Part shown: positions 40,818 to 61,700 of the stretch, piece after piece | Layout: the number at the start of each line of letters is the position of its first letter | How positions within the stretch are numbered: position 1 is the first letter of the stretch | NCBI RefSeq assembly: GCF_030409315.1 | Contig: NZ_JAUFPS010000097.1 | Coordinates: forward strand, 124,001-188,000 | Source: Mucilaginibacter flavus | GTDB lineage: Bacteria > Bacteroidota > Bacteroidia > Sphingobacteriales > Sphingobacteriaceae | Length of the DNA stretch: 64,000 nt | Direction of reading: 5' to 3' | Translations under genes and position numbers: made by a program | The notes under the pieces: model-generated | What the model saw: the letters and a program-made list of their open reading frames with translations, nothing else | The model's database searches: none | What the model was told of the DNA's origin: nothing

Positions 40818-40840
40818 AAATCATTGAAATTCAATGATTT
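40818..40840. repeat. Inverted repeat next to the recombinase stop
   Basis: AAATCATTGA (40818-40827) and TCAATGATTT (40831-40840) are perfect 10-bp arms around AAT, ending the recombinase ORF. May be a terminator-like hairpin or part of the recombination site. Confidence 0.45.
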
Positions 40841-44580: not shown

Positions 44581-45786
44581 TTACCTGCCATTACTCCGTT
44601 TCTTTCTTCGTTTCAAGGCATCGTCTTCGTCATCTGAAATTTGAATGCCATTACCAGTATCATGCCAATCAGCACCAATGCTATAATCGCTAACAGTATT
44701 AGCCGAAGCTGTTTCAGGTAATCCGCTTGTTTTGTTGCCATTGATTCCAGTTTCTCCATCCTTTGCATTATCGTATCCTGCTTTTTCGTTATTTGCTGAA
44801 TCTGACTGGCTGAGTTCGATGAGTTTTTCTGCATCAGGAACAGGAGTTGTAATATCGTTTCTTCTTCCGTTTCCGGGGTTTCCGTTTCCGGCTGGGGTAT
44901 GGTCACCGTATCTTGCCTTTGTTCTGCCGTTAGCTTCGCTAACGATCTTGCGATCTCTGTTTTGTTCATAGTCTAATTTTTTTTCGATTTCCATCCATTT
45001 AAAGCGTCCGCCTAATGCCTGGCCCTTTGCTTTAAAGTCCTTGTAAAAAAAGGTGATGCCGCTGACATATCCGGTCGTCGCCTGGTTAAAGAGTAAATCA
45101 ATCCCTTCAGCTTCGCAATGCTGGATGAAATCCTGCATGCTCCGCTTTGGTTGGTTCAGGATAAGCGATAGCTTTTCCTGAACCAACATTTTGTTGGAGG
45201 CCTGCCCGGTACGCACCACCATTTCTATTTCATCTTTTTTTGGCGAGCGTCTGAATTTACTTCCGGTCGGAAAGACCTTTACGTTTTGCGTGGATGCCTG
45301 CACTGCTACAAACTTGCTTTGCTGTACGGTCTTTAGTTCGTGTACCTTTTCCAATTTGCGCAATAGTGCCTCACTGCGCTTATAATTATTGCTGTCTGAA
45401 ACGACCTTGCCGTCAAAGGTGATACGGTTAACTAAAAGATGAATATGCGGGTGTTCCGCATCATAGTGCCGGAAGATCATATATTGGTTATCGGTAAACC
45501 CCATACGCTGTAAATAGTCACCCGCGATAGAGAGTAGTTTAGTATTGTCCAGCTTGTCGGTTTCCTCATGTAAGAAATTAAGGCTGGTGTGGTAAACGTA
45601 GTTACCGAGCGAAGGCCGCTTGCGCCTTATAACTTCAATTTCCTTTTTGATAAGTTCAAAATCCAGCGAAGCAAAATTCGTTTCCAATAATTCGGCTCTT
45701 TTGCTGCTGTCTTTGTGGTTTAGCTTTTTAAGATTATAGGCTAATGCTCCCATAAAACTTTTACCTATCTTCTGATCCGCTATCAT
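44581..45786 (-). CDS. Relaxase/mobilisation nuclease
   Basis: A 401-residue relaxase. The metal-binding motif is HPHIHLLVN (residues 112-120, HxH...N), with a Tyr-bearing N-terminus (GKSFMGALAYNLKKL; the catalytic Tyr may be Y17). The C-terminal third is polar and disordered. It nicks DNA at oriT and pilots strand transfer with host conjugation machinery in trans. It overlaps mobC by 26 bp, and its 3' third overlaps a second reading frame (44613-44969). Confidence 0.9.
   Translation of the reverse strand: MIADQKIGKSFMGALAYNLKKLNHKDSSKRAELLETNFASLDFELIKKEIEVIRRKRPSLGNYVYHTSLNFLHEETDKLDNTKLLSIAGDYLQRMGFTDNQYMIFRHYDAEHPHIHLLVNRITFDGKVVSDSNNYKRSEALLRKLEKVHELKTVQQSKFVAVQASTQNVKVFPTGSKFRRSPKKDEIEMVVRTGQASNKMLVQEKLSLILNQPKRSMQDFIQHCEAEGIDLLFNQATTGYVSGITFFYKDFKAKGQALGGRFKWMEIEKKLDYEQNRDRKIVSEANGRTKARYGDHTPAGNGNPGNGRRNDITTPVPDAEKLIELSQSDSANNEKAGYDNAKDGETGINGNKTSGLPETASANTVSDYSIGADWHDTGNGIQISDDEDDALKRRKKRSNGR
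44613..44969 (-). CDS. Membrane-anchored coiled-coil protein nested in the relaxase gene
   Basis: A 118-residue protein read in a different frame wholly within the relaxase 3' end. It has a helical N-terminus, a coiled coil (SQIQQITKKQDTIMQRMEKL, residues 56-75) and one TM helix (LRLILLAIIALVLIGMILVM, 88-107) followed by a short basic tail. The relaxase frame in this stretch is low-complexity, so the overlapped frame appears to carry the structured protein. RSF1010-type MobB is also nested and membrane-bound; it may likewise couple the relaxosome to the membrane. Confidence 0.6.
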   Translation of the reverse strand: MNKTEIARSLAKLTAEQRQDTVTIPQPETETPETEEETILQLLFLMQKNSSNSASQIQQITKKQDTIMQRMEKLESMATKQADYLKQLRLILLAIIALVLIGMILVMAFKFQMTKTMP

Positions 45787-46120
45787 CTTTTAGTAAAAGC
45801 CGTATGATCTTTTCTTCCTGCCGCAACAAAGCGGTAAGCGTTTTATCAATCCCAAAAGGAAATTTGCCAGAATTGGCCTGTCTTGCGAGTTGATTTAAGT
45901 TGACACCGATCTTCTTTAATTCGACGTAGGTTTCCTCATCTATCCTGGGCATCCGGGTAGCCGGGAAATGCCCCTTAAACACCTTCGTCCTGACCAGATC
46001 GCCCGGCTTGGTGCCGCATGCGTCTGCCAGCGTCAGCAACCGCTGCCGTTGTTTTTCGGTTACCCTGAAAGTGATCTTTAAAGATCGCTTTTCCGATGGT
46101 TGAACTTTTGGCCTTGCCAT
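45761..46120 (-). CDS. mobC: Mobilisation accessory protein MobC
   Basis: A 119-residue relaxosome protein of the ribbon-helix-helix MobC type (KRSLKITFRVTEKQRQRLLTLADACGTKPGDLVRTKVF; KKIGVNLNQLARQANSGKFP). It binds oriT and aids nicking. Start taken at MARPKVQPSEKRSLK (46120). It overlaps the relaxase by 26 bp, and the candidate oriT lies directly upstream. Confidence 0.9.
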   Translation of the reverse strand: MARPKVQPSEKRSLKITFRVTEKQRQRLLTLADACGTKPGDLVRTKVFKGHFPATRMPRIDEETYVELKKIGVNLNQLARQANSGKFPFGIDKTLTALLRQEEKIIRLLLKDDSGSEDR

Positions 46121-46145
46121 AAAACTCAAAAAATATTTTTGTAGG

Positions 46146-46560: not shown

Positions 46561-49500
46561 ATGAACGCCGTAAAAAGTTATATAACTTTTCTTAAAGAAT
46601 ACAAAAAACTTCTCGAGCGAGGTATCAAAGATATTCTTGCTAGTAGCAATGCATCAAACTTCATTTGGTTAAATGACATCGAAAAACTTTTAGATGCAGG
46701 GATGTGCAATTCAGTTTTACCTAAACTTTTTACTCCGGAATTTATTAAAGTTGAAAAAATATTTACTCTGGATAAACCTTTACTGCCAGAGATTACTATT
46801 TCGGATATATTTTCCGAAGATGTTTTTTTTGATTTCGCCAAAAACGTTTTCTCTAGTAAAAACAATGATAATGAATCATTACGCCTTTATTTAAGCTCCG
46901 AGGAAGGTGAAATTAGCGCTGAAAAGATAAAAACTTATAAAAGGGGTAAAGAAATTTATTCAAAGCTTTTTCGAGCTTATAATGATATAAAAAATGATTC
47001 CAATCTTGAAATAGTCCTTAGTATCGGTTTAATACAGTACGCAAAAAAAAACAGCTCAAATAATTTTTCGAAAACCAATCAACATCTTTTTCATTTTCCT
47101 TTAACATTAGAAATTAGTTCCAAAAATTCAATCAGCCTAAGCTTTTCTGAATCCGGGACGCCATACGCTGATTTTTTCTTTTTGAATAGCGCGCCAATTG
47201 AGAAAGAAGTACTATTAAATATCATAGAAATATTTGACGCGAAAATTGAGGAACTCGGGTTTGAATACATATACCAGCAAGATTTTAGAAAATTAATTTC
47301 GAATAGTCTCCAAAAGATGTCAGATAGTTCCGCTTTCGAAACTTCTCTTAATAAACCCGAAAGTGACATATACAGGGAAGATTTTTTTAGAATCAGTTTT
47401 TCGCCAGCAATTAATATTAAATATCAGAAACCTCGTTTTTTTGAAAGATTGACAGACTCTATTATTGCGCATAACGATTTAAACCCAGAAACTGGCACAT
47501 TGTTCAATTTTTTAGTACGAGATCCATCTACTTTGTATAAGAACAGTCATCCGAAACAAAATTACTTTATTGATGAGCTTTATGAAGAAAATAAAGAGAG
47601 CTTCTCTTCTTTAAATGCCGAAGAAGATTTTTCGGTCTTTTTTCCGCTTCCATACAATACGGAACAGAAAAGTATCTATAAAAATTATCTTAAGAATAGA
47701 TTAACAGTTGTTACCGGTCCACCGGGGACAGGAAAATCGCACACAATTGTTAATATTTTATGTACTTTATTGGCACAAGGAAAACGGGTGCTGGTTACCG
47801 CTCAAACTGACAAGGCATTGGAATCCCTTCTTGGGAAAATTCCTGAAAGCTTTGACGATCTCATTTTTACAAAAATAGAACTTGAAAACAAAAAAGACAG
47901 ATTTTCACTTTCAAATAGCATTGAACGAATCTCAGATTTGTTGACCAAAAGTTACATTGTAAATATTGATAACAAATTGTTGGATTTGGATAAGCTCAAA
48001 GCGGCGTACGTAAAATCGAAAGGCGAGATCATCAACTCATTAGAATCTGAATATTCGACAGTCAGCTTAAACGAAAGTTTTTCTAATCTAAGACCATATC
48101 AGATAGTCGAAAAATTCCTTAAGAAAGATCCTAAAGAGTTCAATTGGATCAAGGATAACTTAGTTGAATTTAATGTTGTCGACTTTCAAAAATTAAAAAT
48201 CAGTTTAATAAAATATCAAAAGTTAGGTGATTATGAAATTTCAACTTCCGATTCGCTGGATATTGACCTGGAAAGCATTTACAATAAATTAAAGGATTTT
48301 GATTTTAGGCAGCTCTTTCAGTTAAAGGAAAAGAATCAAACGAAAAGTATAACGTTAGGGTTAAATATACAAAATCGGGATAAGCTGCTTAGCATAGATT
48401 TAGACCGTATCATTGAGCAAATAAAAGATTTTACAAATTCTGACTTAGTTATGAAGTCAGCTCAGGAAATTGATCGTTTGTCTGCTTCACTACATTCAAA
48501 TTTTGAAAGTTGTGATCTTACCACCAATAAGGCATATTCTGAAATCATCGAAAATCAAACCAGATATCTTTTAGACATTGAAACCTATCAGTCTCACTTA
48601 ACTGATCAAACTGTAAGTTTTTTTAAAAGATATACTGCGTCATTTAAGAAAGTGGCGTATTTAGAAGACTTTACCATTGATGGGAAAAAGTGTAACACAC
48701 GGGATGAAATAGTTAAGCTTAAATCGCTAATAGAAAAAATCTCCGTTCTTGGTAGGAAATTCAAACTTCTAAAAGATACAGGATTTATTTTTGTGCTAGA
48801 TGAGCGGGCAAACGTTAACGAAAAGTTTAGTCAATTTGAGGACATCCTGGCTCAGATCGAAAGAAATAAACAGTTGTTGAACAAAACGAGATTAGACCCT
48901 GGGCTAGTTAACTTTTCTCGATTCATTGATCTTCCAATAGAAGATATTGACGGTATTAGAGAGAAGGCGATTATGTATAGGGAAGATCTTAAAGACTTAG
49001 TGCAACTGGACTCCAAAATTCAAGGTCTTATTGAAATCCTAAAAGGAGTCAATATAGTTATAGAAAGATCTAAGCTAAAACACCTGTTTATGGAATTTCT
49101 CCCTATATATGACATTGAAGATGAGGATAAATATCAAGGTTTACTAGATAAAATACGAAGTTTCAATGAACGCTTGCTAAAGGAAAATGAATTCCGCAGA
49201 ATTGTTTCTTATTTGACTGAATATTTGCCAAATACATTTCCAGACCTTAAAAACATTAACCCCGAATACTTTACAATTGAGAATATTGATTATGCCGTGA
49301 CAAATCAATATCTAGAATATAAGTTATCTATAAATTTACAGGCCAGTACAGAAAAAATTTCAAGATTAAATAATGAAATATCAAAAAAGAAATGTGAAAT
49401 TTTATTCGATCTTGGAAAAAGCAACTTCAAGAAAAAATTTAATGATGATGAGATTGACGCGTTTATCAATGTTCTAAAAGAATATAAGTATAACTTAAGC

Positions 49501-51015
49501 CAAAGTAATAGAAAGATACGTGATCAGGTCAGATATCAAATTCTTTGTAGAAAGAATAGCATAGCCATATCGAAGAAACTCTCCTGTTGGGTAATGAAGT
49601 TTAACGATGTGCTAAACAGTGTAGGTCATGAGCCCGAGATATTTGATTGCATTATTGTCGATGAAGCAAGTCAGCTAGATTTCAATAGTCTTATTCTCGG
49701 TTATTACGGAAAAACCATTATAATCGTTGGAGATGACAAGCAAACTTCTCCATCTAGTCTAACTGCTGCAGATGGCAATGATTTCGACACCATAAAAAAT
49801 AAATATTTAGAATTTCTGGGGCCGAATGTCATTCACATTAAAAGCGATAACAGTCTATTTAACCTTTCGGAGATGATTGCAGGAACTTCCAATCTCACCC
49901 TAAAGGAACATTTCAGATGTGTGCCAGAACTGATCGAATTTTCTAAAAACTATTTTTATAATAATTCACTTAGACCCTTAAAGCAACTAAATTCGAATAG
50001 GTTGCCTCCCAAAAAAACAGTATTTGTAGATAATGCAATTTCAGAGGATAATATCGTACATCAGGAAATTCTACAAATAAAGGAATGTTTGAAATTAATG
50101 CTAACTGATCCCAGTTACAAAACAAAATCAATAGGTGTTGTAAGTCTTGGCTATACAAAACATACTGAAAAATTAAAAGATGTAAAAGAAGATCTTGTTG
50201 CTGAATTTGGAAGCGAACTTATTGATTCTTTTAAGATAATCATTGAAGATTCCCCAAAATTCCAAGGCGACGAGCGGGATGTGATGTTAGTTTCACTTGG
50301 GGTAGCATTAGATTATGAAGCTAGCATAAATAATAAAAACGCAAAACCAACAGCAATTATAAATGATGATGACAAAAAGAGAAAAATAAATGTGGCTTTA
50401 AGTAGAGCTAAGGAGCAAATGATACTTTTTCATTCGGTTAAAAATGACAATTTAGCTCCACAAGACTTTAGAAGGGAAATAATAAATTTCTTTTACTCAG
50501 AGGTCAAATCATTACAGCCTCTTATTCTTGATAACTTTAATATTCAAAGAGACCGCCTCAACGTTCCGACGCCATTCGACAGTTGGTTTGAAGCTGATAT
50601 AGCAAAAAGTCTTATAGAACATGGTTACAACTACATTCAGCCTCAATATAAGGTCAAAGAAGACGAACAATATTTCAATCAGAAACTTAATAAAAATGTC
50701 TACGTTAATTTCAAAATCGACTTAGTAGTTTTTAACAACGGCAAAACAATAGCTATAGAATGCGATGGAGACCCTTTCCATTCACTCCCAGAAGACGTCG
50801 CGTACGATATTGAACGACAGGAATTTCTTGAAAGAATTGGATGGCGTGTCTATCGAATTCTTTATTCTGCGTTTAGAAGAAACCCTAGTTACGAAATCGA
50901 AAGACTAGTAAGCTTCATTGAAGCAAATACAAAGATTGATACATATTTGATTCCACCTCTGACGAAACTGGGAGAAAACATAAATGGTAATCTGTTGAAG
51001 AAGCATCAATTTTAA
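46561..51015 (+). CDS. SF1 (UPF1-like) helicase with C-terminal PD-(D/E)XK-like nuclease
   Basis: A 1484-residue protein. Walker A GPPGTGKS is at 386-393 and Walker B DEASQ at 1034-1038, with a long coiled-coil-rich insert (about 450-1000) between them. The C-terminal helicase motif VALSRAKEQ is at 1278-1286. The last about 130 residues form a DUF559/Vsr-like nuclease: D1387 in FKIDLVVF and the E1400-C-D pair of AIECDGDPFHS, then GWRVYRILYSAF. It should unwind and cut DNA. It is the first gene of the A+T-rich operon leading to zorAB-like genes, where Zorya systems keep their nucleic-acid effector genes, though this one does not resemble ZorC, ZorD or ZorE as I know them. Confidence 0.85.
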   Translation: MNAVKSYITFLKEYKKLLERGIKDILASSNASNFIWLNDIEKLLDAGMCNSVLPKLFTPEFIKVEKIFTLDKPLLPEITISDIFSEDVFFDFAKNVFSSKNNDNESLRLYLSSEEGEISAEKIKTYKRGKEIYSKLFRAYNDIKNDSNLEIVLSIGLIQYAKKNSSNNFSKTNQHLFHFPLTLEISSKNSISLSFSESGTPYADFFFLNSAPIEKEVLLNIIEIFDAKIEELGFEYIYQQDFRKLISNSLQKMSDSSAFETSLNKPESDIYREDFFRISFSPAINIKYQKPRFFERLTDSIIAHNDLNPETGTLFNFLVRDPSTLYKNSHPKQNYFIDELYEENKESFSSLNAEEDFSVFFPLPYNTEQKSIYKNYLKNRLTVVTGPPGTGKSHTIVNILCTLLAQGKRVLVTAQTDKALESLLGKIPESFDDLIFTKIELENKKDRFSLSNSIERISDLLTKSYIVNIDNKLLDLDKLKAAYVKSKGEIINSLESEYSTVSLNESFSNLRPYQIVEKFLKKDPKEFNWIKDNLVEFNVVDFQKLKISLIKYQKLGDYEISTSDSLDIDLESIYNKLKDFDFRQLFQLKEKNQTKSITLGLNIQNRDKLLSIDLDRIIEQIKDFTNSDLVMKSAQEIDRLSASLHSNFESCDLTTNKAYSEIIENQTRYLLDIETYQSHLTDQTVSFFKRYTASFKKVAYLEDFTIDGKKCNTRDEIVKLKSLIEKISVLGRKFKLLKDTGFIFVLDERANVNEKFSQFEDILAQIERNKQLLNKTRLDPGLVNFSRFIDLPIEDIDGIREKAIMYREDLKDLVQLDSKIQGLIEILKGVNIVIERSKLKHLFMEFLPIYDIEDEDKYQGLLDKIRSFNERLLKENEFRRIVSYLTEYLPNTFPDLKNINPEYFTIENIDYAVTNQYLEYKLSINLQASTEKISRLNNEISKKKCEILFDLGKSNFKKKFNDDEIDAFINVLKEYKYNLSQSNRKIRDQVRYQILCRKNSIAISKKLSCWVMKFNDVLNSVGHEPEIFDCIIVDEASQLDFNSLILGYYGKTIIIVGDDKQTSPSSLTAADGNDFDTIKNKYLEFLGPNVIHIKSDNSLFNLSEMIAGTSNLTLKEHFRCVPELIEFSKNYFYNNSLRPLKQLNSNRLPPKKTVFVDNAISEDNIVHQEILQIKECLKLMLTDPSYKTKSIGVVSLGYTKHTEKLKDVKEDLVAEFGSELIDSFKIIIEDSPKFQGDERDVMLVSLGVALDYEASINNKNAKPTAIINDDDKKRKINVALSRAKEQMILFHSVKNDNLAPQDFRREIINFFYSEVKSLQPLILDNFNIQRDRLNVPTPFDSWFEADIAKSLIEHGYNYIQPQYKVKEDEQYFNQKLNKNVYVNFKIDLVVFNNGKTIAIECDGDPFHSLPEDVAYDIERQEFLERIGWRVYRILYSAFRRNPSYEIERLVSFIEANTKIDTYLIPPLTKLGENINGNLLKKHQF

Positions 51016-51031: not shown

Positions 51032-52489
51032 ATGAACTTTATTAGGAAATTATGGCTTAGGTTAAAGTTGCTCTTTTCGAAGAAAACCCCACAGCAAAAA
51101 GATTTTTTTAGAGAGCAAAAAGCGATTCTTGAAACTTCATTCAATGAGTTTGAACTTTTGCAAAATTATAGTGAAGTTAAAGATGATGCTAGCAAGTTAT
51201 TAATTATTGATCAACTAGCTGAAAATGCCACATCAAAAGCAATTTTATCATTTTACAACGAAAACAATATTTTTTTATTCAGCAGAAGTAGTCATAATGA
51301 CCTTGCCAATTTCAGGGCGGAATTATTAGAATTGGAAAAAAGACGACTACTTCTGAATTTCGCAATGAATGAAATTTCCGAACTACAATACGCTGATCTA
51401 TCATTTATAGACGATAAGATTGGAACAATGATAAGCCTTGGGACAAGAAATGGTGTAGGATTAAGAGACCAAAATAAGATTCGGATTTTCGAAAATCCTC
51501 AATCTGCTGAAAAATTAGAGAATTTGTTAAAGGCTCATGGTACACTGAACCTTCATAAGGCAAGACTTGATAAAAAGCAACAACAGATTGAAGTTGAAAA
51601 AGGCAAAATAAAACAAAAATTAAATCGCCTTGAAGGAGCAATTGCTCAGAATAGATTAACGGAAGCAAAAGCGTTGATTTCTGAACTTGCTTTAGAAATA
51701 AATTCAACATTCTACAAAGAAATTCTAAGACTAAACCAATCTAAACAAAAGATTAGGGATAAAGAGCTTGTGTTAATTGAAAAAGCTCAGAATGAGGTTT
51801 TAAGAAAACACCTAGAGGAAGTTAAGCGTCATCAAGAAATTGAAAACCAACGATTAAAAACGATTAAAGTTGAGAAGGATAATGAGGATGCTATTAAAAA
51901 ACTTCTAGCTGCAGAGAAGGATTCAGAGAAAGAAAAGCTGAAGAATTTACTAACTAAGAAGATTGATTGGATGGACTTTGAAAATGTTTGTAATGAAAAT
52001 AGTATTACTCAACTTTACCATTTTACAGATAGGGCTAATTTAAAATCAATTAAAGAATGTGGAGGACTATATTCTTGGCATTATTTACAAAGAAATAATA
52101 TTGACATTCCTTTTCCAGGAGGCGATATACAATCCAGAGAGCTAGATAGAAGATATAATTCAGAGGATTTTGTTAGAGTGTCTTTTACGATCAATCATCC
52201 GATGATGTTTGTTGCAAAAAAGCAAGACAGGATAAAAGATCCAGTGATTTTAAAAATAGACCGTGAGGTGTGCTTCTTTCAAGAAACAAGGTTCTCAGAC
52301 ATGAATGCAACTAAAACAGGTCATAAATCTGGATCAAAAATCGAAGATTTCAAAAGAATACGATTTTCATTAGTTAGACATGTGAATCATTTTAATTTAA
52401 GCGATGAAGAAGTAAAATATTATCAGGCCGAAGTAATGGTAAAAACTTGGATACCTGCTGAGTCCATTTTAAATATTAACGAGTTTTAG
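51032..52489 (+). CDS. Coiled-coil protein with C-terminal DarT-like ADP-ribosyltransferase domain
   Basis: A 485-residue protein. Residues 1-315 are helical and coiled coil. The C-terminus (about 325-485) matches the DarT/DUF4433 pattern: LYHFTDRANLKSIKECGGLYS (H330 region), then INHPMMFVAKK (NPMLY-like) and finally YYQAEVMVKTWIPAESIL, where E467 aligns with the DarT catalytic Glu. DarT enzymes ADP-ribosylate DNA bases. DarT is normally short, so this long N-terminal arm is unusual and may couple it to the helicase or motor. It lies 16 bp after the helicase gene and 1 bp before the NADAR-like gene. Confidence 0.78.
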   Translation: MNFIRKLWLRLKLLFSKKTPQQKDFFREQKAILETSFNEFELLQNYSEVKDDASKLLIIDQLAENATSKAILSFYNENNIFLFSRSSHNDLANFRAELLELEKRRLLLNFAMNEISELQYADLSFIDDKIGTMISLGTRNGVGLRDQNKIRIFENPQSAEKLENLLKAHGTLNLHKARLDKKQQQIEVEKGKIKQKLNRLEGAIAQNRLTEAKALISELALEINSTFYKEILRLNQSKQKIRDKELVLIEKAQNEVLRKHLEEVKRHQEIENQRLKTIKVEKDNEDAIKKLLAAEKDSEKEKLKNLLTKKIDWMDFENVCNENSITQLYHFTDRANLKSIKECGGLYSWHYLQRNNIDIPFPGGDIQSRELDRRYNSEDFVRVSFTINHPMMFVAKKQDRIKDPVILKIDREVCFFQETRFSDMNATKTGHKSGSKIEDFKRIRFSLVRHVNHFNLSDEEVKYYQAEVMVKTWIPAESILNINEF

Positions 52490-52490
52490 T

Positions 52491-53165
52491 ATGATTTATG
52501 TAGATAGTAGAAAGAAAAGTGAGAAAACACTTGCAGCCCGATATCCAAATGCCAAGATATTGGATGTCACTTCAAAGGCAACCACATCATTGGTGAAACT
52601 AAGTCCATTTTATCCGCACAGTAAGATTCCAGTTCCGTTTTCAGATGGAATGATGGCAGAATCTGTTGAAGGTATATGGCAGGGACTAAAAGTTTTTGAG
52701 GGTGCAGACGTGGATAAGTCAGTATTCGAGAATAAGACAATGAAAAATCTCAAAAGAACAGTAAGGAAGTTTGGAAAACCGTTAGGGCATAGAAAAGGAT
52801 TTTTAGGAAAGGAGTTGTTGAGTTATATTGACGCCCGGATTGAGATATATCTTCCAACCTATTTATGGGTACTTGAAAATAAAGTTGGATCTATATTGGA
52901 AAAGTTAAAAGATGCTGCAATACATCAAGATATTGTCCTTTTGGACTATGAAACAAATTGTGATGTCCTGAATTACAAAAAACCGTTATCCCATGCATTT
53001 TTGGTTAAGTCTTTTGTTGATGGTAATTATCCAAAGGCAAGTGAGCTTTACAAACAGTTCAATAACCAAAATGGTGAGAAAAAGGAAAATACGCAAGTAG
53101 AACTAAAAAATGATAATAGGACTATCAGAAAAAAGATAGATCCAAATCAAAATACATTATTTTAA
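52491..53165 (+). CDS. NADAR-like protein (DUF6939-type), candidate DarT antidote
   Basis: A 224-residue protein. LSPFYPHSKIPVPF (37-50) followed by MAESVEGIWQGLKVF (55-69) and KNLKRTVRKFGKPLGHRKG resembles the NADAR signature (LSNFyP...SVEhayQAxKF...K.LGR), though it departs in detail; I believe it belongs to the DUF6939 group. NADAR enzymes are known to remove ADP-ribose from guanine and can replace DarG as DarT antidotes. With a 1-bp gap to the DarT-like gene, an antidote role is attractive, but it is inference. The tail is polar and disordered. Confidence 0.62.
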   Translation: MIYVDSRKKSEKTLAARYPNAKILDVTSKATTSLVKLSPFYPHSKIPVPFSDGMMAESVEGIWQGLKVFEGADVDKSVFENKTMKNLKRTVRKFGKPLGHRKGFLGKELLSYIDARIEIYLPTYLWVLENKVGSILEKLKDAAIHQDIVLLDYETNCDVLNYKKPLSHAFLVKSFVDGNYPKASELYKQFNNQNGEKKENTQVELKNDNRTIRKKIDPNQNTLF

Positions 53166-53174
53166 ATTAAACAA

Positions 53175-54680
53175 ATGACATTCGAAATTATATTTATTAT
53201 CGCCCTGATTGCCTTGCAAATTTTTGTTTTTGCGCACGTCATGAAAAAGATTCGTGCGTATAAGACGTTTTTTCCAAGCTCGTTTAAAGACATAGAAATT
53301 AAATCATTTTTTATAACGAAAGATGTGATGGCTGATCCAGAGCAATTTGAATTATACCTTGACTCATTATCTGACACTCATTTATTAGTAGGAAACGAAC
53401 CCGATGCTGAACCTGTAGAACTTTTGGTCATTCCAGTAGACACACATAAAACGCACATCGACTTTTCTGAGGTTATAAAATCTACCAATGCTTATTTATG
53501 CAAAAACAAAGGTGCTTCAGCCGACTTTGGAATCCTGAAAGATACTTGTGAAAGACATGTGGAAAAAGTTGATAACGAAATAGGAAACCTAATAAATGTG
53601 CCATTGTATATCGGATTAGCCGGAACGTTTATTGGGATTATAATTGGCCTCTCTGGAATTGATTTTACTGCTACTACAGCAGGGACGACTACGACAATCT
53701 CCTCAGATAGCATAAGTCACCTGCTTAACGGTGTTATTGCAGCAATGGTTGCCAGCTTAGTGGGGCTTGCGTTTACAGTAGTTAATTCAGCATTGATTTA
53801 CAAACCAGCCGCTTACCGCAACGATACGGACAGAAACCATTATTACGACTTCCTTCAACGAGAACTATTACCATTTCTAAATATTGGAGTATCCAAGTCG
53901 CTAGGAAGCTTTAAAGATGTTCTAAATCATTTCATCAAAAAATTTGGTGAAAACATGGGTGACTATAAAGATTCCGGGCAACTACTTAATGAGAACTTAA
54001 AGAAGCAACAGACAGTACTTGAAGAAATAAATAAACTAAGTCTGACCAAAACAGCAACCAAAATAGCCGAAGTATTTGTGGACCTTAAAGACTCAGCAGA
54101 GCATCTAGATAGATTTCAAGAATATCAGAAAGGATTAAACGGTTACATTGATAAGACCGAAACAGTTGCTGGCGAAATGAATGAAATAATAGGACAATTT
54201 AAAGATTTTAACAGCAATCTAAAAATTCTTTCCGGACAATCCGTGGCAAATGTCGAGCTACAAAAGCAATTTAAGGATTCGCTTGAAAAACATTTTCCCA
54301 CAATAAATGATCATCGTGAAATATGGAGATCGCAAGTTGATGAGCTTAACGAAGATATAAGTGTGATCTATAGGGAGCTCAATAGTTATTTCAAGATTTC
54401 AACAGAACAAATACAAGCATTTGTTGGCAGCAACAATAATTTCTTTTCCGGACTTGACGAAATTCAAAACGCCGTCCAGGTTTTTGTCGAAAACTCTAAA
54501 ATTCAAAAAGAAGAATTTAGTCTTCTAGTAAACCATATCGCAGACATGAGTAACGATTTCCGTAACGCACAGAAACAGTCTATAGAGACCAACGTTGCTC
54601 TAATAGACGCAATAAAAGATCTAAAGATCAATATGAATAAGTCAAATAATAGACTGGAGAATCTGAATGAGCAAATCTAA
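53175..54680 (+). CDS. zorA: ZorA-like MotA/TolQ-type proton-channel protein
   Basis: A 501-residue protein with TM1 near residues 4-22, a cytoplasmic loop, TM2 (NVPLYIGLAGTFIGIIIGLSG, 141-161) and TM3 (LLNGVIAAMVASLVGLAFTVV, 183-203), then a long coiled-coil tail to the end. This is the layout of ZorA, where a MotA-like pentamer bears a tail that passes a signal to cytosolic effectors. The next gene is ZorB-like, overlapping by 14 bp. Unlike plain ExbB/TolQ/MotA, it has the long tail and no TolR/TonB partner. Confidence 0.88.
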   Translation: MTFEIIFIIALIALQIFVFAHVMKKIRAYKTFFPSSFKDIEIKSFFITKDVMADPEQFELYLDSLSDTHLLVGNEPDAEPVELLVIPVDTHKTHIDFSEVIKSTNAYLCKNKGASADFGILKDTCERHVEKVDNEIGNLINVPLYIGLAGTFIGIIIGLSGIDFTATTAGTTTTISSDSISHLLNGVIAAMVASLVGLAFTVVNSALIYKPAAYRNDTDRNHYYDFLQRELLPFLNIGVSKSLGSFKDVLNHFIKKFGENMGDYKDSGQLLNENLKKQQTVLEEINKLSLTKTATKIAEVFVDLKDSAEHLDRFQEYQKGLNGYIDKTETVAGEMNEIIGQFKDFNSNLKILSGQSVANVELQKQFKDSLEKHFPTINDHREIWRSQVDELNEDISVIYRELNSYFKISTEQIQAFVGSNNNFFSGLDEIQNAVQVFVENSKIQKEEFSLLVNHIADMSNDFRNAQKQSIETNVALIDAIKDLKINMNKSNNRLENLNEQI

Positions 54681-55317
54681 CGAAAAGAAAAGGGACTTTT
54701 TTTGGCTAAGCTATTCAGACCTGATGACTAGCTTGTTTTTCGTCATGCTTGTACTTTTTGTACTTGTGTATACAATGCAAGCAAAAATGATTGGAGAACT
54801 TACAGCTGCCAAGATTGAGCTAGATGAAATTCATAAAATTCAGGAAGCTTTAAAAAATTTAGACAAAAGATATTTTGTCTTCGATACAAGAAATAAAAGA
54901 TACAAATTAAAGGTTGACGTAAATTTCAAAGGCAATAGTTCAAATATACATGATATTCCTACAGCACTCCAGAATGATCTTCTTTTAGCGGGGAAGAATA
55001 TCTTTGATTTGATGACAAAACTTACTAAAGAAAACCCAAACGTTAATTATCTTGTCATTGTAGAAGGCAATACGCAGCGTACCCAAGGGAATTTCATAAC
55101 AATGCCTGACGTTGGGTACGTATTGAGTTATAATAGATCTCTATCCTTAGTGAACCTTTGGCAACAAAACGGATTGAACTTTAAATCATTTAAAAACTGT
55201 GAGATTCTAATCACTGGAAGTGGATACTTTGGAAAATCTAGAGAGTTGAATGAAGCTGAAAACAGAAAGTTCACAATTCAGATCACGCCAAAAATTGGTA
55301 ACATTATAAAAAAATAA
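54667..55317 (+). CDS. zorB: ZorB-like MotB/OmpA-type stator protein
   Basis: A 216-residue protein with one N-terminal TM helix preceded by the proton-channel Asp (WLSYSDLMTSLFFVMLVLFVLVY; D18) and a C-terminal OmpA/MotB-like peptidoglycan-binding domain (LVIVEGNTQRTQG; SYNRSLSLVNLW; RELNEAENRKFTIQI). It overlaps zorA by 14 bp. Pairing with the MotA-like protein gives a ZorAB inner-membrane motor thought to sense envelope perturbation by phage. Confidence 0.88.
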   Translation: MSKSNEKKRDFFWLSYSDLMTSLFFVMLVLFVLVYTMQAKMIGELTAAKIELDEIHKIQEALKNLDKRYFVFDTRNKRYKLKVDVNFKGNSSNIHDIPTALQNDLLLAGKNIFDLMTKLTKENPNVNYLVIVEGNTQRTQGNFITMPDVGYVLSYNRSLSLVNLWQQNGLNFKSFKNCEILITGSGYFGKSRELNEAENRKFTIQITPKIGNIIKK

Positions 55318-55468: not shown

Positions 55469-55765
55469 ATGTATTTCTTTAAGCTGAGAGAACCCATTTA
55501 TATGCCCAAGGGTTCACGTCACACCTTGGGCTTTCATGTGCTTAAGCACAAACATGGGCAATCTATTATTACTTCACTATCAACGGTTTCTAATAATACC
55601 CGTGACTTTCAGGTTAACGACTTGGCCAGATACCGCCAAAACTCTTTATATTTTTCTGAGAATAATCAAACTACCACGCTGATTGGCACAATCAAACATT
55701 TCACCCAAAAAACATCTGCCAATACCAGTAGTCAGCTCGAAACTTTTCTAAATTTAACCGCATGA
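55469..55765 (+). CDS. Hypothetical protein (98 aa) coupled to DUF6361
   Basis: An unrecognised 98-residue protein. Its stop overlaps the DUF6361 ATG (ATGA), suggesting translation coupling and a true gene, perhaps a small regulator of the second defence block. The composition is unlike a DNA-binding fold; a decayed gene is possible. Confidence 0.45.
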   Translation: MYFFKLREPIYMPKGSRHTLGFHVLKHKHGQSIITSLSTVSNNTRDFQVNDLARYRQNSLYFSENNQTTTLIGTIKHFTQKTSANTSSQLETFLNLTA

Positions 55766-57000
55766 ACCATATCGGCTGGCTTGATTATTCCCCGTTGCAC
55801 CACGACAAAGTGATGCAAGTAATGGATATGTTCAAAGAAACGGGAGTGATCGATGAGCTGGGTTTGGGCACGATAAGGGATACCCTAAGCGACCTGTTTT
55901 TTCCAGGGACATCAACTATCCAGACCAAAGCGAAGTACTTCCTGCTCATTCCCTGGATTATCCGTGACATCGAAAAAAGTGGCACGGCTGCCCGATTCTT
56001 CGAGGACTTACAACGCGAAGAAATTCATTTCACAAAAATACTGCGCAACAACTCCGGCAATTCCGGTGTAATTGGCGCTACATTAGTGAACGCAAACCCC
56101 AAAAGAAAACCTTCCTCCATCTACTGGACCGGTTTGAAACGCTACAATATACTCAGGTTCAGCGGCTCCATCAGGGAGTATAAAAACTATTCGCTTTATC
56201 TGGCAGCTAAAAGAAAGCGATTAAAAAAGGAGCTGATCCTTGATGAAAACAAGAAACCGTTGGACGACCGGGACGCGATCTATATCGAGCACGACAATTT
56301 ATGGAGCCAGCTGCCAGCCCCTCCGCTGGATTGGCGAACCAACCTAAAGATTGAACTCGAATACGAGGAGGCAAAATACCTGAATGAAAAAATAATCAGC
56401 AGCAATGACAAAACTTTATGGGCCTTTGCGCTAAAACATTGCCCCTTGGAAGCAGCAAGCTTTTCAGCGATCGATGATTTCTTAGTTATTGAAGGTTTAC
56501 CTGACCAATTAAAAACTTTGATAAAACTGGCTTCAGATTTTAACAGCATCATGCAAGGAGCAGTGCTCAGGTACAATTACCTGATACAACTAAAAAGGGA
56601 AAGCGAGAAAGCGGATCAACTCGAAACCCAGTGGCAGGTTTACCTACAACAAATGACGGACTTCCCATGGCATACCTGGAATACCAAGCACCTATGGCTG
56701 CGCTGTCCGGGCATCCGCCAGTCGACCCGGAAATTTGTCGAAGATTGGATTGCACTTGCCAGTGCGGCAGCATTTTCTGAAGGGTTAGCCGATGACCTGA
56801 TAAAAAAACGCGAAAATAAACTTAAAGGCCCGAACAGGGCGCGACTTAGCAACCTGGCCGTTGCGCAAAAACAAGATACACTTACCGGTATGCGTCTCAG
56901 CGATGGGCAAGTTCAATACCTCAACTATCGCTGGCCAATAGCCAGGACATTTTTAACAGACATCAACACGGGAATGAAGAAATATGCTGCAGCCGGATAA
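55762..57000 (+). CDS. DUF6361 family protein
   Basis: A 412-residue protein with the DUF6361 signature near its N-terminus (IGWLDYSPLHHDKVMQVMDMF...DELGLGTIRDTLSDLFFPGTSTIQTKAKYFLLIPWIIRDIE). Function unknown; the family occurs beside helicases and PLD-like proteins in suspected defence operons. It overlaps the PLD-like gene by 17 bp. Confidence 0.85.
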   Translation: MNHIGWLDYSPLHHDKVMQVMDMFKETGVIDELGLGTIRDTLSDLFFPGTSTIQTKAKYFLLIPWIIRDIEKSGTAARFFEDLQREEIHFTKILRNNSGNSGVIGATLVNANPKRKPSSIYWTGLKRYNILRFSGSIREYKNYSLYLAAKRKRLKKELILDENKKPLDDRDAIYIEHDNLWSQLPAPPLDWRTNLKIELEYEEAKYLNEKIISSNDKTLWAFALKHCPLEAASFSAIDDFLVIEGLPDQLKTLIKLASDFNSIMQGAVLRYNYLIQLKRESEKADQLETQWQVYLQQMTDFPWHTWNTKHLWLRCPGIRQSTRKFVEDWIALASAAAFSEGLADDLIKKRENKLKGPNRARLSNLAVAQKQDTLTGMRLSDGQVQYLNYRWPIARTFLTDINTGMKKYAAAG

Positions 57001-58789
57001 AGACAGGTTAGATCTTGGCCTTTTATTGTCGCCACCCATCGGGTTTCAGGTGGATAAAGCGATAGCCACCTGCTATTCGCTCGATCTTGACGCGCTGATC
57101 TCCATACCGATAGCGCTTTGCTTCTCCACCACCCTGGAATTCAACGTAACGGAACATATCGTAGAGATCCTGGAAGCCATCCGGCGAACCAGCGAGTCGA
57201 TCAAAATATATTGCCAAAAAGGGCAGATTAAAGTGCCGCAAAACCAACACCGGCTTTATCATTTTATTGAGAAATGCCTCGTGCAGGTTCCGCCGAAGCC
57301 GGAACGGTCTTTTCATCCAAAAGTATGGATAATACGGTTTAAAGGCGAGAACGCCATCCGTTACAGGATCATTGTCATGAGCCGGAACCTGACCTTTGAC
57401 CGTAGTTGGGATGTTGTATTTCAAGTGGAAGGCGAGGTTCAGCCGGAGAGGAAAAATAGTTATGGCCGTAATCGCCCACTGGTCGATTTTGCGAAATACC
57501 TGGTTAACATGTCGCCAGAGGACTGGTCCGCCCAGTTTTTAGCAGATCTCGGAAAAGTACAGTTTACGCTTGACGGGCAAGGCATCGATGAATTTGATTT
57601 TCTACCGATGGGCATACCTAAATACAGCGGGGAGGGCTTTTTGTCGGAACGCTATGACCAGCTTGCAGTTGTCAGTCCATTCGTCAGCAAAACAGGGCTT
57701 ACCTATCTGCTCGGTCATTGCAAGGGCAAACCCACCCTGTTCACCCGCTTGTTTGAGATCAGGAAATTAAAAGACCATATTAAAGAGCGATTGGATATTT
57801 ACCACCTTGACCACGCCTTCGTTGAAGCGGAAGAAAACATGGAGTCAGATACCAATGAAAACGAGGATCAGCAACACCAAGACCTTCATGCAAAAATCTA
57901 TTGCGGAAAGTCCGGCTGGAACGCGACACTTTACCTGGGTTCGGCCAACTGCAGCCACAGAGCGCTCACCAGGAATGTGGAATTCATGGTGCGTCTCAAG
58001 GGCAGGGATTCAAGGATCGGGCCGAAAGTCTTTTGCGACGAACTGCTCAATACCGGCTGGTTTTTTAAGTACGCACCAAACGATGAAATTACCATAGAAG
58101 AAGAAGAATTATGTAACCGGCAGCAATTGCTTCAGGACCTTCGGGTGGAATTTGCCAATATTCTTATCGAAGCAAACGCTGCCCGGCATGAAGAAGGGAC
58201 TTACTGCATCAACCTGAGAATGGACCTCTCACAGATCACCTGCGACCAACAGATCAAAGCAAGCTGTTACCTGCTCAATGCAGAAAACCATGAGCGCTCC
58301 TTACTTTTTGGCGAAATCAATGAATGGGAAGTAAGACATCTCGCCGAGCTAGACCTCAGCAGTTTCCTGATCATCAGGCTCCAGGACAACAAATCTCATG
58401 CGGAAAGTGAATTTGCCATAAAGATTATTATTTCAGGTTTGCCGGAAAGCCGGGGAAACCGGATATTCAGTGACATTATATCAAACTCACACCTGTTTTT
58501 TAAATATCTCCGCTTCCTGTTAGCTGAAAACTTATGGGAGGAACAGGATTCGGGCTCAACTAATACGGCAACCCAGTTTGGCTTTGGATCAGGACAATTT
58601 AATCTTCAGGAAGAGCCTATTTATGAAAATATGCTCAAAGCCATTTCGAGGGAACCTCAAAAGTTATTGGAGATCCGGCAGGTCATGGAGAAAATCGCTT
58701 CCGAGGACACCGATGCCGTATCGATCATACCAGCCAACTTTAAAGTTCTTTGGGATATTTTTGAAAACACCCTGTCAACAGTCAAATGA
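56984..58789 (+). CDS. Phospholipase-D-like (HKD) nuclease
   Basis: A 601-residue protein with two PLD half-sites: HPKVWIIRF (H111) with SRNLT, and HAKIY (about 303) with GSANCSHRALTRNVEF. The HxK(x)4 pattern is in place, so a PLD-type nuclease is likely. It shares 17 bp with DUF6361 and 4 bp (ATGA) with the helicase gene; the three form one unit. Confidence 0.85.
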   Translation: MLQPDKDRLDLGLLLSPPIGFQVDKAIATCYSLDLDALISIPIALCFSTTLEFNVTEHIVEILEAIRRTSESIKIYCQKGQIKVPQNQHRLYHFIEKCLVQVPPKPERSFHPKVWIIRFKGENAIRYRIIVMSRNLTFDRSWDVVFQVEGEVQPERKNSYGRNRPLVDFAKYLVNMSPEDWSAQFLADLGKVQFTLDGQGIDEFDFLPMGIPKYSGEGFLSERYDQLAVVSPFVSKTGLTYLLGHCKGKPTLFTRLFEIRKLKDHIKERLDIYHLDHAFVEAEENMESDTNENEDQQHQDLHAKIYCGKSGWNATLYLGSANCSHRALTRNVEFMVRLKGRDSRIGPKVFCDELLNTGWFFKYAPNDEITIEEEELCNRQQLLQDLRVEFANILIEANAARHEEGTYCINLRMDLSQITCDQQIKASCYLLNAENHERSLLFGEINEWEVRHLAELDLSSFLIIRLQDNKSHAESEFAIKIIISGLPESRGNRIFSDIISNSHLFFKYLRFLLAENLWEEQDSGSTNTATQFGFGSGQFNLQEEPIYENMLKAISREPQKLLEIRQVMEKIASEDTDAVSIIPANFKVLWDIFENTLSTVK

Positions 58790-61700
58790 AAAGCCATCAC
58801 TACACCGATCAGCTAAAAGACTTTCAGCGGGCCACCGTTGATTATGTGTTTGAACGTTTTATAGATGAATTTTCGCCCTGTAACCGTTTTTTGGTCGCCG
58901 ATGAAGTTGGCTTGGGAAAAACTTTAGTGGCAAGAGGCATTATTCAGCGGTTTTATGACCACTGGAAAGCGCGAGGCAAACAACACCTGAATGTGATCTA
59001 CATTTGTTCCAACCAAAGCATCGCCAGCCAAAACCTGGACCGTTTGAATATCGAAAAAAGCAACCAGGAAGATTATGGCCGCTTCAACCGAATTAACGAC
59101 CTTGCCGTTTTCGACCCCGGAAAGCACCGGAACACTTTCCTGCAGCTCACGGCACTTTCCCCCAATACTTCGTTTAAAGTATCCACAGGCGGTGGAATTG
59201 TCAAAGAAAGGGCAATCCTGTACGAAATACTTAGAAAGCACCCGGTCTTTAAACGCCGGTATCAAAAACTTTCGGCGATTTTACAGCTGGATGTCAACGA
59301 TGATACCTGGGCTAGCTGGGTCAGTGGGGCAAACTACCTCGGCAACCAGGTCCGTAAAGAGATCCTCGAGCATTTCAATGCGGCCCTGACCGATGAAAAC
59401 AGCCTTTATGGTGATCTGGAACGTATCTTATCCTTACCGGCAAAAAAAGCGGACACCAAGCAATTGCGAAGCCTGATCGGGCGTTTAAGACGGCATTTAG
59501 CGGCGATCTGCGTTGGTTATTTAAGGCCTGATTTGATCATTATGGATGAGTTTCAGCGCTTCAAAACGTTGATCAGCCTTGACGAGAACAGCGAAGTCCG
59601 CATCATTACCGACCCGCTTTTTAACGATCCCCGAATAAACATCCTGCTGCTTTCTGCGACCCCATATAAAATGTACACGCTGCAAAGCGAAGAAGAAAAC
59701 AATGAGGATCATTTCGAAGAGTTTAAATTCGTCGTGAATTTTCTGTTGAACGACACGGAAAAAGCCCAGGCTTTTGACAGCGCCTGGACTCGTTATTCCA
59801 AAGCCCTGCTGAAAATCGGGGACCGGGACTGGAAATTATTGCGACAAGAAAAGTCAGCTGTCGAAGCCCTATTGCGAAAAGTTATCGCCAGGACCGAACG
59901 CGTAACGGTCTCAGACGATCATAATACGTTGTTGAAAGCGATAGTACCCAACACACTGGCTGTGTCAACGGCAGATATAACCAATTTCATCGCGCTGGAC
60001 AGCCTCGCGAAAACGCTTAAAAATGTAAACAGCCCGGTCGAATATTGTAAGTCCTGCCCCTTTCCTCTTTCATTTATGGAAGGCTATCAACTTCAAAAAT
60101 TAACGCGGCGCGAAATTGATAACGGTAATATCGGCATCAGCCAGGTACTGGCACATCATGAAACCTGTTTTCTTCCCGCCGAACGCCTCGACCAGTTCGA
60201 GCCCATCGGATCGCCTAACGCGAAGCTGGCCTATTTATGCCGGGAAACCCTTTACAACGGCGGTGCTGATTTGTTATGGATACCACCTTCCCTGCCTTAT
60301 TACAGTTTTGGAGCGCCTTTCGCGCGGCAAAGCACCTATTCAAAATTACTGGTTTTCTCCTCCTGGCTTATGGTGCCTAAAATGATCGCCGCCCTCACCT
60401 CTTATGAATGTGAAAGATTGAACGAGGAAAACGAAAGCAAAGAAAAAAGAAGCTATTTCGGGCAAGCGGAAAGGGCCAGGTCCCGACTGCGGGTTGTCAA
60501 TGATAATAAAGGGTTTCGAACGCTGCCGGCTTACGCGATCATGTATCCGTGCATGACCTTGAGCCATTGCTGGCAACCCAGTGCCGATCTAAGAGACCAG
60601 CAGCAGCTTCTGCAGGAAATAGCCGCTGAGATCGCTGAACAAATTTCAGCCGTCGACATTGCACCCTATATTTCGGGGGAAGGCAGGAAAAATGATGAAC
60701 GCTGGCCCTTGATCTACATGCTATTATTGGACAGAAAAGACCATAAGCGCCAGCTGAAACGGATCGAATCCCAACATTCCCACTATGAGTGGGCTAGTTT
60801 TCGCCACGACAAGGATGATAGTAGCGCAGCGACAGAATATTATAAAAAGGTTTTTGAAGACATTTTATTCAGCGACAATCCTGCGGAAGTACTGGTAGAA
60901 CTTAAGCTGGGTGCACCGTCGTTTGACGTGCATATTCAGCTGGCAAAGCTGGCCCTGGGATCCCCCGCCATTTGCAGCTTCCGGCTAATAAATGCCTATT
61001 GCGGCCCGGACGAGTCACTCTCTTATCTGCCGTTTTACGGCGGTTATCAAATCGCTGACGCTTTTCGGAAATTTTATAACTCGCCCGAGCACACCGCTGT
61101 GGTAGACCAGCAAGGTTTTGATGGCGCCTATTGGCAAAACTTGGTACAATACAACATCGCTGGTAATTTCCAGGCCATGCTGGATGAATATACCGACGCG
61201 CTTAAAGACCACTTTGGTTTATGGGATTATTCGATGGCAGAAAAAGTAGGCAAGCTCATCACGCTGATCAGTGAGAACCTGGGATTACGAACCGTAAACG
61301 TTACGGGACATACCTATGAAAGTTTTATGACTAACGAAAGCCCAAAGCATTTCCGCTGTCATTTTGCTGTCGCCCTCAACCAGTCCTTCGACCGTGAGCA
61401 GGAAGTTATGCGTGCTGATGCGGTGAGAAACGCCTTTAATTCACCTTTCCGGCCCTTTGTATTGGCCACTACATCCGTAGGGCAGGAAGGTTTGGACTTT
61501 CACCTGTATTGCCGGAAGATCATGCATTGGAATCTGCCCGCAAATCCCGTGGATTTTGAACAGCGGGAAGGGCGCATCAACCGGTTCAAAAACCTGGCGA
61601 TCCGCCAAAATATCGCTGTCAAGTACCGGAATGCGCTCAATACAACCTCCATTGCCGATTTCTGGCCGCAGTTATTCGAATTAGCCGCTGCCTGTGAGAA

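Follow-up and report, generated by a model that had tools for sequence, protein, structure and literature searches.

A DarT1-type toxin, a predicted DUF6939 antidote and a ZorA/ZorB-like motor pair form a recurring gene cassette, a candidate for phage defence

A window of 64,000 nucleotides of the Mucilaginibacter flavus contig NZ_JAUFPS010000097.1 (positions 124,001 to 188,000; "the window" denotes this whole stretch) carries four adjacent genes encoding, as predicted from sequence and models, a DarT1-type ADP-ribosyltransferase (ART), a DUF6939 protein that would act as its antidote, and a ZorA/ZorB-like membrane motor pair (Table 1). DarT, DUF6939, ZorA and ZorB recur and diverge as one unit across genomes. 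We propose, with a probability of about 0.6, that 51032-55317 is one anti-phage cassette of Zorya-like design, with a motor that positions or arms a DarT1 toxin and an antidote that erases the product of that toxin.

The order DarT>DUF6939>ZorA>ZorB was found in 12 places: the window, nine genome contigs (L009, L010, L011, L013, L014, L074, L081, L082 and L087, all among the best 80 DUF6939 loci described below), one plasmid of Parabacteroides distasonis (L107, NZ_OY725823.1, annotated there as a DUF4433 protein and hypotheticals) and one viral-collection contig (L108, the same place as L109). Outside the four genes, no protein family is common to more than 3 of the 12 cassette flanks, those of L009, L014, L074 and L082 being short on one or both sides. 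Pairwise identity among the 12 cassettes ranges over 48-95% for DUF6939, 35-95% for ZorA and 33-96% for ZorB, and the divergences of the components are strongly correlated (r = 0.93 for DUF6939 with ZorA, 0.86 for DUF6939 with ZorB, 0.85 for ZorA with ZorB and 0.87 for the DarT arm with ZorA), the toxin domain following less closely (r = 0.63 with DUF6939 and 0.68 with ZorA). Seven Mantel tests on cassette divergence, each with 5000 permutations, gave p <= 0.0006. That the four genes travel together suggests a virus defence assembled from parts that had until now been known separately.

A first-pass annotation, made from the letters of the window, had described a DarT-like and a NADAR-like gene in tandem, and the two open reading frames (ORFs), 51032-52489 (485 residues) and 52491-53165 (224 residues), indeed lie on the + strand with 1 base between them, exactly as given there. 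The motifs quoted for the toxin are present, in the order LYHF (residues 328-331), HPMMF (389-393) and YYQAEVMV (463-470), and so are those of the partner, LSPFYPHS (37-44) and SVEGIWQGLKVF (58-69). Residues 329-482 of the first protein match Pfam DarT (PF14487; E = 1.6e-23, 84.0 bits, cut-off 22.5). Its AlphaFold2 model (mean predicted local distance difference test, pLDDT, 85.2; predicted TM-score, pTM, 0.51) agrees with the DarT-like identity: at E <= 0.001 it matches seven PDB chains, every one a DarT or DarTG, among them 7omy (Thermus DarT, 7.3e-7), 8baq (DarT1, 1.9e-5), 7omv and 7omu. The proposed helical arm of about 300 residues likewise appears in the model, where helices span residues 2-305, with two low-confidence stretches (116-121 and 141-160), and the catalytic domain begins at about residue 313.

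With a profile of 55 DarTs, the top match is the E. coli C7 DarT1 (8baq, 2.7e-10), and the Thermosipho DarTG 7omu and the Thermus DarT2 7omv score 3.4e-7 and 0.15, respectively. The same profile aligns with the DarT of locus L089, the neighbour of a Pfam NADAR-DarT1 gene, at a probability of 99.1 and E = 3.9e-19, and the stretch SRELDRR is common to the window DarT and that of L089. Since the structure search puts the Thermus DarT slightly ahead of DarT1, the subtype is drawn from sequence. In this regard, passages of PMC11543638 name as essential in DarT1 a Glu, an Asn, a Met, a DarT1-specific Asp, Ser S63 and Arg R52. Mapped onto the window protein from alignments, without superposed coordinates, the catalytic Glu (E467), the base-coordinating Asn (N425, not His), the Met (M391) and the DarT1-specific Asp (D372) are each present in 55/55 DarT rows; S384, at the S63 position (Tyr in DarT2), is Ser in 52/55, and His H330 is kept in 54/55. 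A counterpart of R52 is not assignable, which tempers the DarT1 assignment: R369 varies (38 R, 10 K, 5 W and 2 H in the 55 rows), and R382 is Arg in 55/55 yet lies at a different place from R52. On its sequence, 51032-52489 encodes an ADP-ribosyltransferase of the DarT1 type, joined to a long helical arm, and guanine in DNA is, by analogy, its probable target.

Whether DarT begins with an amphipathic helix that targets the membrane was judged from hydrophobic moments, with a divided outcome: the moment exceeds that of shuffles in only 6/12 cassette DarTs (<= 0.03), the window protein not being among them (0.197), with segments chosen by their best moment. The host genome contains 1 match to DarT and 1 to DUF6939. 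As the first-pass annotation had stated, no macrodomain (DarG) gene lies nearby: the sole Pfam Macro match of the genome (E <= 0.001) is on a different contig.

DUF6939 is listed by Pfam as a family without assigned function. The earlier description of the window member as close to NADAR stands for the fold and the catalytic residues but not for family membership, as the protein misses the curated cut-offs of both Pfam NADAR families: it scores 18.8 bits with NADAR-DarT1 (PF22397; cut-off 27, E = 0.0012), and NADAR (PF08719) is not among its Pfam matches at E <= 1. The latter, general model has no match anywhere in the host genome. The fold itself came out as predicted: for the AlphaFold2 model (pLDDT 90.7, pTM 0.83, 81 sequences), the sole PDB match at E <= 0.001 in Foldseek is 8bat, the DarT1-associated NADAR of Geobacter lovleyi (E = 1.9e-4, probability 1.00, TM 0.49), and VIA-align gives this chain Z 10.3 (4.2 A over 167 residues; next row Z 4.4; 63 chains aligned).

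Passages of PMC11543638 report that E88, K95 and D171 are essential in the NADAR of E. coli C7 and that E173 is dispensable. Their counterparts E60, K67 and D152 are invariant in 81/81 DUF6939 members, with a spacing of seven residues between E60 and K67, as between E88 and K95; D152 was placed by reading, without a significant sequence alignment, and position 154 (D152 + 2) is variable (39 D, 20 N, 18 E, 3 T and 1 A). The segment SVEGIWQGLKVFEGA corresponds to SVESAFQSSKVFEKG of 8bat, and K85 and K88, both invariant (81/81), are candidates for NADAR K115. Pfam NADAR-DarT1 is matched by 36/81 members at E <= 0.1 (best 4.2e-5), every family other than this one and DUF6939 matching at most 3 of 81. 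A point on the other side is that hhalign gave no significant alignment between the DUF6939 profile and a lone NADAR sequence (probability 1.4%). Judged from the models, DUF6939 has the NADAR fold and the essential residues of NADAR and would hydrolyse ADP-ribose linkages, and the identification of the pair as a DarT with a NADAR-type antidote is well supported by the computation.

Other identities of the DUF6939 protein were considered. Weak matches to Shedu SduA (PADLOC 1.3e-4; 8ps4 at 0.075 by phmmer and 0.45 by profile) were set aside, since among folds only NADAR is matched significantly and Shedu chains are absent from the 16 Foldseek rows. A match of the family profile to RNF8 (0.0068) is due to a short helical stretch, and one of the window protein to picornain 3C (0.0026) was found in just 1/81 members. 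A search of phage records with DUF6939 gave no match at 1e-5.

The association of DarT with DUF6939 extends well beyond the cassette. In the best 80 of 285 matching stretches of a genome scan, ranked by likeness to a query alignment led by the DUF6939 of the window (some of these loci stop at contig ends, L008 and L015 are one place, and a plasmid match, H1, lies outside the counts), a DarT gene stands at most 300 bases away on the same strand in 59 loci. The order is DUF6939>DarT in 46 and DarT>DUF6939 in 13, of which four have no motor genes; DarT lies about 1.1 kb off in 2 and is missing in 19, and none was found elsewhere within the 80 loci. Adjacent, co-oriented DarT and DUF6939 genes therefore recur across genomes, which is the linkage looked for in toxin-antitoxin pairs. 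In the DUF6939>DarT arrangement, DarT bears a long C-terminal extension, weakly VWA-like (0.0024) in L016, the one scanned. Loci with DUF6939 and no DarT have other neighbours, for which no enrichment is claimed since they were chosen by eye: in five scanned loci we found ADP-ribosylglycohydrolase (L058, L073), microbial PARG (L071, L075) and an NrtR-like NUDIX regulator with a weakly sigma-like protein (L067), and a search of whole genomes gave L006, where a NADAR gene (1.3e-55) lies near DUF6939. By analogy, such company would fit an enzyme that removes ADP-ribose.

The ZorA-like gene starts nine bases past DUF6939, and the ZorB-like gene overlaps it by 14 bases. PADLOC matches the former to ZorA2 (1.9e-7) and the latter to ZorB1 (1.1e-11 over residues 3-215); in the 10 cassettes scanned, one ZorB1 model matches 10/10 and the best single ZorA model (ZorA1) 7/10. 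According to hydropathy, each of the 12 cassette ZorAs combines an extended tail with three or four hydrophobic segments, and 12/12 ZorBs have one hydrophobic segment with an Asp in a SYSDLMTSLFF-type motif. In these features, the two proteins resemble the membrane motor pairs of stators. Their kinship with Zorya proper is weakened by scores below the Pfam cut-offs (ZorA with MotA_ExbB, 18.4 bits against 22.9; ZorB with OmpA, 12.8 bits) and far from the NCBIfam Zorya cut-offs (ZorA 17.0 against 100 bits, ZorB1 26.9 against 400). Five of the other ZorA-positive genomes have ZorA and ZorB without DarT or DUF6939 in 18 kb. These five were taken from seven, G089 and G269 being left out; overall, the ZorA profile matches 8/395 genomes of the phylum, among which only that of the window has DUF6939, itself found in 4/395. 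Neither the cassette proteins, all four of them, nor the upstream helicase gave a PADLOC match to ZorC, ZorD, ZorE, ZorF or ZorG at E <= 1. Because relatives of ZorA occur in operons that lack DarT, ZorAB-like genes alone do not mean defence; the motor is a module used with varying partners. Five of these places (L099-L103) hold a recurring Bacteroidota operon of a ZorA/ZorB-like pair and a gene starting GGTG[SA]RV, whose product in L099 (the one scanned) has a weak, below-cut-off similarity to tubulin (4.6e-5); in four of them a protein of about 1130-1160 residues is added, weakly FtsA-like in L099.

The way in which DarT is built depends on the company it keeps. By hydropathy, a membrane helix is found in 0/12 motor-linked DarTs and, at their start, in 4/4 stand-alone DarT>DUF6939 toxins. 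The simplest reading is that the toxin needs the membrane and that ZorAB, via the arm, replaces the anchor. These observations bear directly on an alternative in which the window holds a self-contained DarT1/NADAR-type toxin-antitoxin pair that stands by chance before ZorAB-like genes, the toxin being freed when the antidote runs short. Such pairs do exist, as the motor-less DarT>DUF6939 loci (4/80) and the DUF6939>DarT loci with an extended toxin (46/80) illustrate, and passages of PMC11543638 describe DarTG1 as a toxin-antitoxin system on its own. Chance neighbourhood would, however, leave unexplained that four genes keep one order in 12 places, diverge in a correlated way and have no further family in more than 3 of these places, the absence of the membrane helix from motor-linked DarTs and the co-variation of their arms with ZorA, so that we regard this explanation as unlikely.

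In addition to travelling with the motor, the cassettes appear, from sequence comparison, to have exchanged their toxin domains and not their antidotes. In three close pairs, the identity of the toxin domain is 55% (L009/L010), 57% (L011/L013) and 68% (L081/L082), against 88-96% for DUF6939, ZorA and ZorB (88, 90 and 96%, respectively, in L009/L010). At the DNA level, identity falls within the toxin domain and recovers at the domain end, with a second drop within the arm in L011/L013. The proportion of synonymous differences (pS) in the toxin domain is 0.78, 0.65 and 0.71 in the three pairs, and in arm, antidote and motor 0.43-0.55, 0.28-0.52 and 0.30-0.35. Positive selection on the toxin domain found no support: the ratio of nonsynonymous to synonymous divergence (dN/dS), computable for two of the four pairs, is 0.24 and 0.10; exchange fits better since synonymous differences are raised too. 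Consistently, the nearest toxin relative is not the nearest ZorA relative in 6/12 cassettes (the window, L009, L010, L013, L014 and L107): the toxin segment of L010 is nearest to that of L087 (65%) and not to that of its sister L009, that of L107 to those of motor-less pairs (L035, 67%), and that of the window to the stand-alone L015 (67%). Three observations temper the idea of exchange, namely that in the close pairs conservation of the arm, too, falls short of that of the motor (73, 62 and 86%), that a fourth, more distant pair, L074/L108, has no clear drop (pS 0.89 against 0.66-0.83), and that nearest toxin and nearest ZorA relatives agree or tie in 6/12 cassettes.

General exchange in the DUF6939>DarT pairs is unsupported: over 148 overlapping pairs whose DUF6939 proteins share 82-97% identity, the median identity is 68% for the toxin domain and 67% for the extension, the entire toxin protein diverging faster than DUF6939, and only individual pairs, such as L021/L032 (DUF6939 90%, toxin domain 62%, extension 89%), resemble an exchange. 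The alignment of these toxins (A4) covers the first 185 residues of 41 of the 46 DarT ORFs of more than 400 residues behind DUF6939, five near-duplicates having been dropped by eye. One antidote type serving differing toxin domains means that the antidote most likely acts on the product and not by binding the toxin, and passages of PMC11543638 report that non-cognate NADARs rescue from DarT1.

We therefore favour the view that the four genes form an anti-phage cassette, and the following scheme is offered for it. ZorAB would span the envelope and respond to phage entry, by analogy with the proposal for Zorya; the ZorA tail would hold or recruit DarT via the helical arm, which would replace the membrane helix of stand-alone DarTs; DarT would ADP-ribosylate DNA (probably at guanine) at the membrane and block replication; and the DUF6939 enzyme would clear host DNA of stray ADP-ribose. 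Within this scheme we infer that DarT is toxic and targets guanine, that DUF6939 is a hydrolase, that the motor gates the toxin and that the whole serves in phage defence. With respect to the motor, passages of PMC11890865 state that Zorya ZorAB recruits effectors and requires ion flow and the ZorA tail, and they present the coupling of envelope sensing to effectors as not settled. The more specific idea, to which we give an even chance, is a new type of Zorya-like immunity: where a phage enters, an ion-driven envelope motor would bring about a reversible ADP-ribosylation of DNA, the toxin being a cartridge that can be exchanged at the end of the arm and DUF6939 a general antidote that removes the product of any such cartridge.

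In its parts, the cassette resembles several known systems. With DarTG1 (DarT1-NADAR, of E. coli C7 and Geobacter lovleyi) it shares a DarT1-type transferase and a NADAR-fold protein with equivalents of E88, K95 and D171, but unlike DarTG1 it has a long helical arm on DarT, a linked motor pair, and an antidote from DUF6939 that falls under the cut-offs of both Pfam NADAR families. With Zorya types I-III (ZorAB with ZorCD, ZorE or ZorFG) it has in common the three membrane helices and tail of ZorA and the Asp-bearing helix of ZorB; it differs in the absence of matches to ZorC-G, in a payload predicted to consist of a DNA-modifying toxin and an antidote, and in motor proteins far under the NCBIfam cut-offs. 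DarTG2 (DarT2-DarG) likewise has an ART toxin of DarT fold (7omv, 7omu), whereas the window pair has no macrodomain partner near and a profile nearer to DarT1 (2.7e-10) than to DarT2 (0.15), although the 7omu DarTG scores 3.4e-7 with that profile. In the enteropathogenic E. coli (EPEC) island RptR-RMS-DarTG2-M48, as far as described in passages of PMC12255303, a DarT toxin pair is similarly placed inside another defence operon, with restriction-modification and DarG where the window has a motor pair and a NADAR-like antidote. A literature search judged mostly by titles and abstract openings found no description of a DarT-DUF6939-ZorAB cassette, the passages without one including those of PMC11125620, PMC12255303, PMC8565338, PMC12505986, PMC9503650 and PMC11833690, and no paper was found under the name DUF6939. 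A DarT payload on a ZorAB motor would bring a chemical read-out, ADP-ribosylated DNA that an enzyme can remove, in place of nicking. If true, a function would be assigned to DUF6939, a family with 285 matching stretches in the genome collection, which would join macrodomain DarG and NADAR-DarT1 as another class of DarT antidote, and DarT toxins and ZorAB motors would be interchangeable modules.

The genomic setting helps to weigh another explanation, in which the unit is real and is not a phage defence, the motor sensing envelope stress and DarT reversibly slowing replication or growth. Relatives of ZorA and ZorB do occur in operons with a tubulin-like gene where no defence gene was recognised (by eye, with two proteins scanned), and control of growth by DarT is described (PMC12170906), the role considered here being like that of the DarT of Mycobacterium tuberculosis. 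Three lines of evidence point away from such a role. First, the window stretch is mobile and rich in defence, as follows from the serine recombinase, relaxase and MobC genes upstream (Table 1) and from the Zac system 3' of the ZorB gene (PADLOC: ZacA 2.6e-101, ZacB 3.7e-148, ZacC 5.3e-296). Second, other cassettes lie on a plasmid (L107), on a viral-collection contig (L108) and beside an integrase (L010). Third, the changing toxin domain fits an arms race. A role in envelope stress is thus quite improbable in our view.

Table 1. Features of the window that are discussed in the text (window coordinates)
Feature	Position	Strand	Remarks
Large serine recombinase	40831-42387		Upstream of four-gene unit
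Relaxase	44581-45786		Upstream of four-gene unit
NikA/MobC	45761-46129		Upstream of four-gene unit
SF1 (superfamily 1) helicase with C-terminal MTES_1575 nuclease domain	46561-51015	+	Neighbour, probably not part of unit
DarT gene	51032-52489	+	485 residues
N-terminal helical arm of DarT, residues 1-312	51032-51967	+	No predicted membrane helix; AlphaFold2, hydropathy scan
DarT ADP-ribosyltransferase domain, residues 313-485, DarT1-like	51968-52489	+	Pfam, profile, Foldseek, conserved residues
DUF6939, NADAR-like fold, predicted antidote (ADP-ribose hydrolase)	52491-53165	+	224 residues; PF22075 9.8e-75
ZorA-like motor subunit	53175-54680	+	Three predicted membrane helices; C-terminal tail of about 290 residues (presumed helical)
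ZorB-like subunit	54667-55317	+	One membrane helix with motif Asp D18; ZorB-like periplasmic part

The first-pass annotation had placed the toxin and its partner inside an operon, wording that would take in the helicase gene before the pair; this gene is not shared with other loci, whereas the ZorA/ZorB-like genes behind the pair, which the annotation had passed over, are. The helicase (Pfam AAA_11/AAA_12 and MTES_1575, the last at 6.3e-21; PADLOC PDC-S37, 1.2e-46, partial) ends a mere 16 bases from the start of darT, and cassettes L081 and L108 likewise have helicase or nuclease genes upstream; a five-gene operon that includes 46561-51015 could be read from this. In 92 other loci, though, no ORF is related to the window helicase at E <= 1, and the genes that precede the cassettes of L081 and L108 are unrelated to it at the same threshold. 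Its membership of the system was rejected on these grounds and is very improbable.

Several further observations were made around these genes. In 3/12 cassettes, an extra gene of 555-575 residues follows ZorB (L081 12979-14706, L082 4653-6380, L108 10684-12351); its product has an N-terminal hydrophobic stretch, and the two scanned, from L081 and L108, have no Pfam match. At 5049-14111 of L016, genes for a kinase with leucine-rich repeats, AbiH, DUF6939, DarT with its extension, a 298-residue ORF that overlaps the DarT end and a DUF1810 protein share one orientation and may make up a further system built on the DarT-DUF6939 pair. L006 and L007 are long clusters of NADAR, DUF6939 and macrodomain-, KptA-, Sir2-, DraG- and NAMPT-like ORFs, named by eye except for the NADAR of L006, which was scanned.

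On the Bartonella sp. HY761 plasmid NZ_CP104891.1 (L105, 1-4495), an RHS-repeat gene is followed by a 97-residue ORF and DUF6939, which occupies the position of an immunity gene behind the RHS gene. The RHS C-terminus matches DUF7587 (27.2 bits, cut-off 27) and, below the cut-off, NarE (14.5 bits, cut-off 27), an ART family; from these matches, DUF6939 may guard there against an ART-type Rhs toxin. DUF6939 is found in four viral-collection contigs as well (L110-L113, L112 and L113 being alike in the listed ORFs), with no DarT match within roughly 16.5 kb of each, and possibly serves there as a phage counter-measure against host ADP-ribosylation.

A Bacteroidota-type promoter pattern gave 7 matches against 4.0 expected, a number reached by 9/100 shuffles and so uninformative. 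In the window, a complete-looking ZacABC occupies 55762-61965, immediately after the DarT-DUF6939-ZorA-ZorB cassette, and at 21816-24979 an AcrB-type efflux pump is split over two overlapping ORFs that cover model positions 2-420 and 420-1020.

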